Origin: Reinekea forsetii
Lineage (GTDB): Bacteria > Pseudomonadota > Gammaproteobacteria > Pseudomonadales > Natronospirillaceae
Direction: 5' to 3'
Length of the DNA stretch: 64,000 nucleotides
Assembly: GCF_018860385.1 (NCBI RefSeq)
Contig: NZ_JAHKPH010000012.1
Span: 3,160-67,159 of the forward strand
Position 1 is the first letter of the stretch, and each line of letters begins with the position of its first letter. This document shows, one piece after another, positions 36,682 through 63,582 of this stretch. Below the pieces are notes generated by a model. The model was not told the DNA's origin, ran no database searches, and worked only from the letters and a program-made list of their open reading frames with translations. Position numbers and translations under genes: made by a program.

Positions 36682-37139
36682 AACGATTGTGCGTAACAAT
36701 TCTATTGTTACTCCCTAACATAGCCCTAACCGATGACTGGGGTAGTTGGGATGATTTACCCGACAACTTGCTTCAAGAAACCGATACATTAAAGCTCATG
36801 AATGAATTGGATCGTTTATTCTCAAGTGACTCTGCAGCGGTAGATGAAGAGCTAGATACTTGGTTGAATCAGCTCAACTTACGCCTTAATATTTCCGAAG
36901 AAGATTTAGAAGCATTATTGGAAGAGTTAGACGAAAGTGAAGCCGAGCGCCTAGAGGATTGGTTAGAAGACCAGCTCGAGCTACAAGAAGATGCCTTGGA
37001 GTTGAAAGAGGAAGATGAGGAGGATTTTGACGACGAAGATGATGTAGAAATAGATGAAGAAGAAGAAGAGGAGGAGGAGTTCGAAGACGAAGATGATGAG
37101 GAAGATGACGACGATGAAGACGACGAGGACGATGAGTGA
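36678..37139 (+). CDS. exported, extremely acidic protein
   Basis: A 153-residue protein with a signal peptide (residues 1-18, KRLCVTILLLLPNIALT), a helical middle with repeated short acidic/leucine units (LEALLEELDE, LEDWLEDQLELQ), and a C-terminal tail of 43 residues (111-153) of which 39 are Asp or Glu. The composition suggests binding of divalent cations or of basic surfaces, but no known domain is visible. It overlaps both neighbours by ATGA, so it is translationally coupled to the kinase and the TPR-type protein. Low-complexity regions like this defeat homology calls, so the function is open. Confidence 0.75.
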   Translation: MKRLCVTILLLLPNIALTDDWGSWDDLPDNLLQETDTLKLMNELDRLFSSDSAAVDEELDTWLNQLNLRLNISEEDLEALLEELDESEAERLEDWLEDQLELQEDALELKEEDEEDFDDEDDVEIDEEEEEEEEFEDEDDEEDDDDEDDEDDE

Positions 37140-61472: not shown

Positions 61473-62279
61473 TTATTGGTCGATGTTAACGCGCAATCGC
61501 CATTGCTGTTCGTCTGGAACCACAAATGAAAGTTCAGCATGGCGATATCTCAAATCCTGGCTCACGAGTCGCTGACAATCCTCTACCAAGGTCTCATCTG
61601 CGTTAACTGACAAATAGATTCGCCTCACTATTCGAGCCTGTATTTTTATCACTGGCTGCGGCTCGGCGAATAAAAATGCCGCTCGCCACTCCTCGCGCAG
61701 TGCATTTTCTGGGTTATCCAAAAAAAAGCCTGGAATAGGATTGTGGCCACTGACGTTAAAATCATGGGTTGCGCCATATTGTACTGCTTTCAATAACGCT
61801 AAGCGCTCATCATTCGACTGAAACACATCGTGGTTGGCTTCTAACTCAACGCATATACCACTGAATTGATCAGCCAAACACTGCCAACCATAGTGACTCA
61901 AAGCACTGTTGAATAACCGTAGATAGCTTACTTTATGAAATCGCTCGGTAGAGTACTGATTTGAGCCAGGCTTACTTTGTTGACGACGAGCCTTGATCGC
62001 CGCCTCTATAGAAGGCATGAGCTTTTCAGATTGTTTCGTAAAATCTTCAAAACTGAGCAGCGCACTGATGTGCCCAGGTAAAGCTTCAAATTGACGCCGC
62101 AGCTCTTGGTTTATTTCATGCTCGGTAATGGGCGCTTGGGATAAAACTCGTTTTTGACCAGTTTCTAAATAAGGACTGAGCTGATTCGATCCATGAAGTA
62201 AGGGTAAACGGGCATTCTTCAAATGACCCAGCAATGCCGAAGACCCATATAAATGAAGAGAGGCAGTCGCCATTGTCAT
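61473..62279 (-). CDS. DUF2971-like protein
   Basis: A 268-residue cytosolic protein. The central segment ALSHYGWQCLADQFSGICVELEANHDVF and LLKAVQYGATHDFN fits DUF2971 (a W-x2-hydrophobic-D-x2-G-hydrophobic pattern near a conserved Tyr). Downstream, NALREEWRAAFLF matches the family's acidic E-x2-W/R helix. The function is unknown; DUF2971 proteins are sometimes found in defence or mobile settings, but none is apparent here. It is divergent from the RNA region, and its start is 17 nt from the GacA box. Confidence 0.6.
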   Translation of the reverse strand: MTMATASLHLYGSSALLGHLKNARLPLLHGSNQLSPYLETGQKRVLSQAPITEHEINQELRRQFEALPGHISALLSFEDFTKQSEKLMPSIEAAIKARRQQSKPGSNQYSTERFHKVSYLRLFNSALSHYGWQCLADQFSGICVELEANHDVFQSNDERLALLKAVQYGATHDFNVSGHNPIPGFFLDNPENALREEWRAAFLFAEPQPVIKIQARIVRRIYLSVNADETLVEDCQRLVSQDLRYRHAELSFVVPDEQQWRLRVNIDQ

Positions 62280-62295
62280 TTTTTACTACTCCGTT

Positions 62296-62313
62296 TGTAA
62301 GACATTTCCTACA
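62296..62313 (+). promoter_or_regulatory. GacA/UvrY-type upstream activating site
   Basis: TGTAAG-ACATTT-CCTACA matches the GacA consensus TGTAAG-N6-CTTACA at 11 of 12 fixed positions. Its centre is about 168 bp upstream of the probable RNA start at 62472, close to the distance known for rsmY/rsmZ of Pseudomonas. It could also influence the DUF2971-like gene starting 17 nt away. Confidence 0.7.
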
Positions 62314-62471
62314 ACATTCGTACGTTAATTGGAAAACCCTTGTGATAGAGTCGACACTTTAAGAGGCACTTCTACGAGCTACGTAGCCTGTAGAGAAGCT
62401 TGTTATTTAGGCAAGCTTTTTGGCTCTAAAATTTGTCATATCCTCATCACAAAAAGCCATATACTAGATCT

Positions 62472-62715
62472 TGTTCAGGAAGAACTCCAAGGAAGTATAG
62501 CTAGGATTGGCGACCAACGGATGGAATGTGCTGCTCGGATGCAGCCTTTGGAGAAAACTCTACGGATAGAGCGCATTGGATGCACACGGAAGACCTCAGG
62601 ACACGCCCTGGAACGGGTAAGCGAGTTACACGGATGTAATCGACTCAGGATGAGACTGTTCACGGAAGACAATTGCTTACGACTCCAGGGGAAAGCTCAC
62701 TTTCCCCTTCCCTTT
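62472..62715 (+). ncRNA. CsrB/RsmZ-like regulatory RNA
   Basis: This stretch has no gene but holds 16 GGA triplets in about 220 nt. Many lie in the contexts CAGGA, ACGGA or TTGGA, the binding signature of CsrA/RsmA: for example TTCAGGAAG, CTCGGATGC, CACACGGAAG, CTCAGGACAC, TACACGGATG, CTCAGGATGAG, TTCACGGAAG. A -10 (TATACT, 62460-62465) precedes it by about 7 nt and a hairpin terminator (AGGGGAAAG-CTCA-CTTTCCCCT) closes it. The GacA box 168 bp upstream completes the Gac-Rsm picture. The RNA would sequester CsrA to release target mRNAs. The 5' end is estimated. Confidence 0.82.
62687..62712 (+). terminator. terminator of the CsrB-like RNA
   Basis: A perfect 9-bp stem AGGGGAAAG / CTTTCCCCT around CTCA, followed by a pyrimidine-rich tail (TCCCTTTC) with few consecutive T, so it may be leaky. 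It is convergent with the S1/P1-like gene. Confidence 0.7.
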
Positions 62716-62727
62716 CTCCCTAAATAT

Positions 62728-63582
62728 CTATGAACCAAGCGCTTCATTTATAATCAAAGCCGAGCGGTAAGCCGCCTTTTGTAGCTGAGTTCTTAGCAAC
62801 GCTTGCCCTTCTTTAATTAACGCTGCACTGTAACGCCCCTCTGTTGCAATGGGATACACATGTTCACGTGCCAGTAAATGCGATTCAAATGCCCAATCTT
62901 GTGGCTTTTTCGATTCGCTCCAAGCACTGAGATCCATATCTTTCATTTCGCGGAAATACTCTTGAGCCAAACTAAACCAACGCGTTTCAAACCTTCGGTA
63001 CAGATCGTAATTCCAGATCCAGGCAAGATTGACGTCTTTGAGATCGCCATCTTTTAAATAAATCTTTTGGCCGCCCATATCACGCTTAAGCCCAGTATTT
63101 ACAGGCACGTGGAGCTGTACCATATAATGCATTAAATAGCCCAACGCCTTCTTTTTTTGCGCATTCGAAAACTGGTTTTCTTGCAGCACTTTTTTACTTT
63201 CTAACACAGCCCCTACGGAACAGGCGTTTTTTGGGCAGTGCTGTTGTGGATTAAACTCAGTATCTTCGACAGAAAACAGAGTAAGCTGCAGCGGCTGCAT
63301 AGATCGATTCTTTGCGCGCGAAACCTCTTGCTCTACTCTTGGCGCCATGGCAATGAGCTCACGCTGCCAGTTTGCCCCCAGTAGTGATTCCAAGCGGCCT
63401 TTAGCATTGTCATCTAAATACATCACCATCAACTGAGCCACCATAGAGTGGCCCTGCTCTTCGAACGCGCTAACCAAGGGCGATGCCGCTATCAAAAGTG
63501 AAGCGACTAGCCTCTTCGACTGTTCTGCTCGGCTAACCAACCAATGAATAAAAAGCTGATAACGACTAGCGGACCTAACCAT
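62728..63582 (-). CDS. S1/P1-nuclease-like protein with degenerate zinc site
   Basis: A protein of up to 284 residues with a probable signal peptide (about 24-39, LVASLLIAASPLVSA). It follows the S1/P1 plan, but of the nine zinc ligands only His45 (GH, equivalent to H6 of P1) and His152 (H116) persist. Trp1 is Phe40; the Asp of WAD is lost; the His of the LHY strand is lost; D120 is Gln156; H126 is Asn162; and NLHxxWD reads NLAWIWN, losing H149 and D153. It is probably not a phosphodiesterase. The start is unsure because it overlaps the DUF3392 gene by up to 76 nt; a TTG at 63540 is an alternative. Confidence 0.75.
   Translation of the reverse strand: MVRSASRYQLFIHWLVSRAEQSKRLVASLLIAASPLVSAFEEQGHSMVAQLMVMYLDDNAKGRLESLLGANWQRELIAMAPRVEQEVSRAKNRSMQPLQLTLFSVEDTEFNPQQHCPKNACSVGAVLESKKVLQENQFSNAQKKKALGYLMHYMVQLHVPVNTGLKRDMGGQKIYLKDGDLKDVNLAWIWNYDLYRRFETRWFSLAQEYFREMKDMDLSAWSESKKPQDWAFESHLLAREHVYPIATEGRYSAALIKEGQALLRTQLQKAAYRSALIINEALGS

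Follow-up and report, generated by a model that had tools for sequence, protein, structure and literature searches.

A predicted CsrB/RsmZ-like RNA with a GacA box in Reinekea forsetii and its family

The stretch of DNA analysed here, referred to as the window, comprises 64,000 nucleotides of the Reinekea forsetii genome and contains, near its end, a gap between two protein genes. On one side lies a gene for a 268-aa protein (61473-62279), which has no Pfam or NCBIfam match and is conserved beside the locus in several genera, and on the other an S1/P1 nuclease gene (PF02265; 62728-63582, minus strand). The gap stands out by its GGA triplets: positions 62478-62697 of the plus strand carry 16 GGA in 220 nt, the top count of the window on either strand and the same number that the first-pass annotation had reported for about 220 nt. 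The runner-up over both strands of the window reaches 11, and dinucleotide-shuffling the whole window 100 times gives a maximum of 12. We place here, on the plus strand and convergent with the nuclease gene, a CsrB/RsmZ-like RNA of about 236 nt (62472-62707, predicted start), on the basis of its GGA density, its loop GGA relative to shuffles, covariation and the presence of orthologues. It contains 16 GGA, one of which (62690) falls inside the terminator stem. A DNA search of the R. forsetii genome for a second copy returned no place except the 62.47-62.71 kb locus, and a phage collection gave zero matches. The runner-up GGA cluster, at 37010, was set aside as ordinary, as it lies within the gene of a protein with an acidic tail.

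Upstream of the RNA, a predicted GacA (UvrY) box, TGTAAGACATTTCCTACA, occupies positions 62296-62313 of the plus strand. It differs by one mismatch from TGTAAG-N6-CTTACA and is the best of 23 matches found in the window at up to three mismatches; in the 3.42-Mb genome, the exact pattern TGTAAGN6CYTACA occurs at this place only. At the 15 one-mismatch places of the genome, the downstream GGA count never exceeds 7 per 220 nt; with no GGA-rich stretch behind any of them, the genome is unlikely to encode another RNA of this kind under a near-consensus box. The centre of the box lies about 155 bp before a -10 hexamer (TATACT, 62460-62465, plus strand) and about 167 bp before the predicted RNA start; both a -10 just before the RNA and a box some 168 bp upstream of its start had been proposed in the first-pass annotation, and both hold. 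There is no -35 element and a sigma-70 scan found zero promoters, as would be expected of an activator-dependent promoter. Within the genus, the box is present in all eight aligned loci, which were selected by the box itself, at a centre-to--10 distance of 143.5-155.5, and is the best conserved upstream element of this box-selected set. In 7 of the 8, a script located TATAAT, TATACT or TACAAT 6-7 nt upstream of the motif at the RNA start. Directly 3′ of the box, the eight-region alignment, read by eye, contains a GTACG-centred element (62319-62326, plus strand) that is kept in some relatives and, judging from its sequence, is possibly the contact of a second regulator. The stretch from the box to the -10 also contains, on the RNA strand, a hairpin that resembles a terminator and has a T-run (AAGCTTG...CAAGCTTTTT, 62394-62424). 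No same-strand gene ends at it, and its role may be to insulate the promoter of the RNA or to stop a short transcript coming from upstream.

The RNA itself opens with the hairpin GUUC-AGGAA-GAAC (62473-62485, plus strand), helix 1 of a consensus structure, with one compensatory pair and 96.4% of cells paired. Loop positions of GGA were compared with a control in which every GGA was fixed and the rest shuffled, terminators being omitted. In the window RNA, 7 of 15 GGA lie in loops closed by stems of 4 bp or more (control 3.2, sd 1.5), a value reached by 15 of 1000 shuffles. Seven RNAs pooled, with that of G003 left out as near-identical, place 54 of 103 GGA in loops, against 20.9 in the control (sd 3.9, maximum 33; 0 of 1000 shuffles); taken by itself, copy b of Reinekea sp. 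G2M2-21 (G005) is not clearly above its control (153/1000). The alignment of seven genus RNAs yields a 29-pair consensus with 87.6% of cells paired. Eight of the 29 pairs are changed on both sides, compared with 4.6 in shuffles and 1-3 in slid versions, and the covariation score is 0.297 versus 0.206 shuffled and 0.057-0.136 slid, in a test that favours the consensus structure because it was derived from the same alignment. The folding energy of the whole RNA is no better than that of shuffles (z -0.14), and the span-limited minimum-energy fold pairs 10 of the 16 GGA and leaves only 4 in hairpin loops. The check for GGA in hairpin loops, which had been suggested at the outset, is thus positive against shuffled controls and in the covarying stems, and less clear in global folds.

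At the 3′ end, the RNA would terminate at the stem-loop GGGGAAAG-CTCA-CTTTCCCC (as RNA, GGGGAAAG-CUCA-CUUUCCCC; 62688-62707, plus strand), helix 7 of the consensus, which overlaps the end of a genus-specific motif, GCTTACGACTCCAGG. The hairpin terminator earlier read after the RNA is therefore present and is conserved in relatives, with a broken T-run 3′ of it (TTCCCTTTCTCC). Taken alone it is weak, because the terminator search returned one such site, which is what shuffles give (1.5 expected). Together, the box and the GCTTACGACTCCAGG terminator motif provide a genus-level anchor for locating the RNA.

Related RNAs were sought in seven genomes of the genus, R. forsetii (G000) included, and in 22 genomes of the family. 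Three CsrB-like genes stand in tandem in G2M2-21 (L010) and two in G001 (L011), every copy having a box, a -10, a GGA-rich body and a terminator motif of its own. G002 has a single RNA of 425 nt with the motif variant GCTTACGACGCCAGG, G004 has two RNAs at separate places, and none was found in G006 by genus DNA, box or model searches. In the family, 16 of 22 genomes carry the exact box pattern, and 12 of the 22 have at least 10 GGA per 220 nt behind a box (G000, G001, G002, G003, G004, G005, G008, G011, G015, G016, G017 and G019). The pattern is present without 10 GGA per 220 nt downstream in G009, G010, G020 and G021, G009 having a shorter stretch with 6 GGA after the box. Six genomes lack the exact box (G006, G007, G012, G013, G014 and G018); since G007, G012, G014 and G018 do encode GacA, either the pattern is too strict or variants are used. 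In G016, a second RNA lies behind a one-mismatch box. Exact boxes also occur without a GGA-rich stretch at G015:C1:3164598, G017:C26:804652, G019:C13:94566 and G021:C1:604552, and a further exact pattern lies at G005:C54:162, for which no locus was obtained; from their sequence, boxes away from GGA-rich stretches are possibly other GacA targets or chance occurrences.

As determined by tblastn of the neighbours, the order 268-aa gene, RNA, S1/P1 nuclease and DUF3392 is conserved across genera. The full neighbourhood surrounds the RNA or RNAs of G005, G001, G015, G017 and G019 and the second RNA of G016. It is partial in G004, which keeps the nuclease and DUF3392 side, and in G002, which keeps the 268-aa gene and DUF3392 and in which the nuclease was not found. 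In G008, which belongs to a sister genus, the order is split, one RNA being beside the 268-aa homologue (a single comparison gave 26% identity and E 6e-24) and the other beside the nuclease and DUF3392. No neighbour gene was detected by tblastn next to the RNAs at L053 (G004 C2), L056 (G016 C1), L048 (G011), L079 (G014) and L080 (G020), nor next to the distant matches L101, L102 and L104.

The G008 RNA is greatly enlarged: it measures about 873 nt, carries 86 GGA and is built of a 62-nt unit repeated 10.2 times (L076:1172-2045, that is G008:C1, ~899671-900544; box at L076:985-1002). This genome has another GGA-rich RNA, in L077, which carries a box of its own. The array is not a repeat protein, since the unit length of 62 is not divisible by three and each of the six frames contains 8-12 stops. 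Its fold is only slightly better than that of shuffles (z -1.61), and in a span-limited fold hairpin loops take up 17 of the 86 GGA. Searching 390 genomes of the order with a single piece of the array turned up nothing comparable, the matches in 3 other genomes being about 30 nt long, and a search of the open-licence PubMed Central literature found no long repeat-built RNA of the CsrB family.

Model-based searches overlook the RNA. The covariance-model check proposed in the first-pass annotation came back empty: Rfam, run on the window and the region, left the RNA unmatched at the gathering score or at E up to 10, and the two weak matches obtained at E up to 10 are unrelated and outside the RNA. 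The CsrB model RF00018 reaches its cut-off of 71 bits in 0 of the 22 family genomes, its best score being 49.8 bits (E 3.6e-12) for copy b of the three in G2M2-21. Its matches to short pieces on contigs C16 and C17 of the R. forsetii genome (15.9 and 10.3 bits) were put down to chance. Run over 194 genomes of the order, a model built from the genus RNAs gave matches at E up to 0.1 in 12, including the family members G000, G019 and G017; the filters of this search were stricter and G015 escaped it, so a genome without a match says little. The matches in G076, G142 and G122 (E 2.5e-4 to 0.009) fall within stretches of 14-16 GGA per 220 nt and may, from their sequence, be distant relatives.

The protein partners expected of such an RNA are encoded. 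CsrA is present in a single copy in R. forsetii (91.4 bits) and in 7 of 7 genus genomes, and GacA/UvrY (NF007018) scores 294.5 bits, above the cut-off of 280, which 19 of the 22 family genomes exceed, R. forsetii among them. A BarA/GacS-type hybrid kinase scores 829 bits, below the curated cut-off of 890, a cut-off that the kinase misses in all 22 family genomes. UvrY-type GacA was absent at E below 1e-60 from G006 and G013 among the 22, and both also lack the box. These are small genomes, and CsrA is still encoded in G006; their gene content points to a possible joint loss of the Gac branch.

Phosphorylated GacA is known to bind such boxes and to drive RsmY, RsmZ and CsrB, whose GGA loops take up CsrA. 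By analogy, the BarA/GacS-type kinase would phosphorylate GacA (UvrY), which would bind the box at 62296-62313 and activate the promoter that has a -10 and no -35. The resulting RNA of roughly 236 nt, with its ends at about 62472 and at the terminator (62707), would offer its loop GGA as landing sites and titrate CsrA off its mRNAs. We therefore read the RNA in the gap as a GacA-activated CsrA decoy, the Csr/Rsm output RNA of Reinekea, with a probability of about 0.94; its transcription, activation by GacA, binding of CsrA and downstream effect are what we infer from the sequence. The first-pass annotation had arrived at a Gac-Rsm output RNA, and this reading gains support from the recurrence of the box, the -10, the GGA hairpins, the terminator motif and the neighbourhood, and from the presence of CsrA, GacA/UvrY and a BarA-like kinase. 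The RNA very probably adds a new and unannotated member to the known CsrB/RsmZ class, and Reinekea and its family thereby gain a Csr/Rsm output RNA that model-based annotation has overlooked.

Three other readings of the gap have to be weighed. A TTG-started frame of 134 aa (62329-62733) is open across the whole gap and stays so through the RNA, which could make the GGA triplets codons of a short protein. Between R. forsetii and G003, of the same species, the gap differs at 3 of 448 nt (flanks, 35/1280 and 21/855), a low divergence that counts for the decoy RNA; of these three differences, two are at third codon positions, as a coding frame would have it. Yet the openness is lost in relatives, 4 of the 8 RNAs examined, the window RNA among the eight, having stops in all three forward frames (G005b, G005c, G001b and G002); the frame also starts upstream of the conserved promoter, and the hairpins covary. 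The coding reading was rejected on the loss of the frame, leaving it a negligible probability, and the earlier remark that the gap holds no convincing gene stands. Scarcely more probable is an antisense or cis element acting on the convergent nuclease gene rather than on CsrA. The RNA does point at the 3′ end of that gene, but its terminator stops short of it, the enlarged G008 copy is flanked on one side by the 268-aa gene and shows no nuclease match, the nuclease was not found adjoining the RNA of G002, and GGA loops with a box also occur at other places (G004 C2 and G016 C1).

The remaining alternative keeps the CsrA decoy and gives its main control to a factor other than GacA, for instance a CRP-like or another LuxR-type regulator acting at the TGTGA or CGTACG elements. 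Such elements, TGTGA...TCGACA and CGTACG, are partly conserved by eye between the box and the -10, and G014 and G020 have GGA-rich CsrB-model matches without an exact box. Against this stand the conservation of the box, unequalled upstream in the genus loci chosen by it, and its absence from both genomes without a UvrY-type GacA. We regard control by another regulator as unlikely, though less so than either of the two preceding readings, and retain the GacA-activated decoy.

The RNA shares with the Pseudomonas RsmX/RsmY/RsmZ RNAs, GacA-activated decoys of RsmA/E, the upstream palindromic box and the GGA in loops, and differs from them in its greater length, its right half-site (CCTACA), its neighbours and the lack of an Rfam model match. 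The UAS of rsmY and rsmZ is described as an 18-bp palindrome, TGTAAG-N6-CTTACA (PMC4353343), and the distance of ~167 bp in Reinekea falls between the activating sites given for these genes, at -75 and -196 bp (PMC4950607). Its 16 GGA compare with 6-10 in the Rsm RNAs of P. brassicacearum (PMC7911923), in which rsmX-1 and rsmX-2 lie in tandem, so that tandem copies as such are not new (PMC7911923). In GGA number it resembles CsrB (RF00018) of Enterobacteria and Vibrio, to which G2M2-21 copy b comes closest by model score, whereas the window RNA itself is unmatched by that model. E. coli CsrB and CsrC are listed with 22 and 14 GGA (PMC11882849). Pseudoalteromonas fuliginea has three Csr RNAs, Pf1, Pf2 and Pf3, with 25, 21 and 9 GGA, and Pf2 and Pf3 were discovered through GGA, promoter and terminator (PMC11882849). 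Like these, the Reinekea RNA is a Csr RNA of a marine gammaproteobacterium; Pf1, Pf2 and Pf3 lie at separate intergenic places and are laboratory-tested (PMC11882849), whereas the Reinekea RNA is known from its sequence alone. The open-licence PubMed Central literature returned no paper on Reinekea with CsrA or with small RNAs.

The tandem pairs and triplets, together with the G008 array, suggest that decoy capacity changes at this locus by duplication and repeat expansion. More tentatively, and at somewhat less than even odds, the csrB locus of the family could be an adjustable CsrA sponge, in which the GGA number at a single conserved site of the chromosome tunes the strength of titration and capacity evolves through copy number (one, two or three tandem genes with their own boxes) and repeat expansion (about 236, 425 and 873 nt, with 16, 20 and 86 GGA). 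The one-to-three-copy series and the 86-GGA RNA form a natural set for testing decoy capacity against CsrA level.
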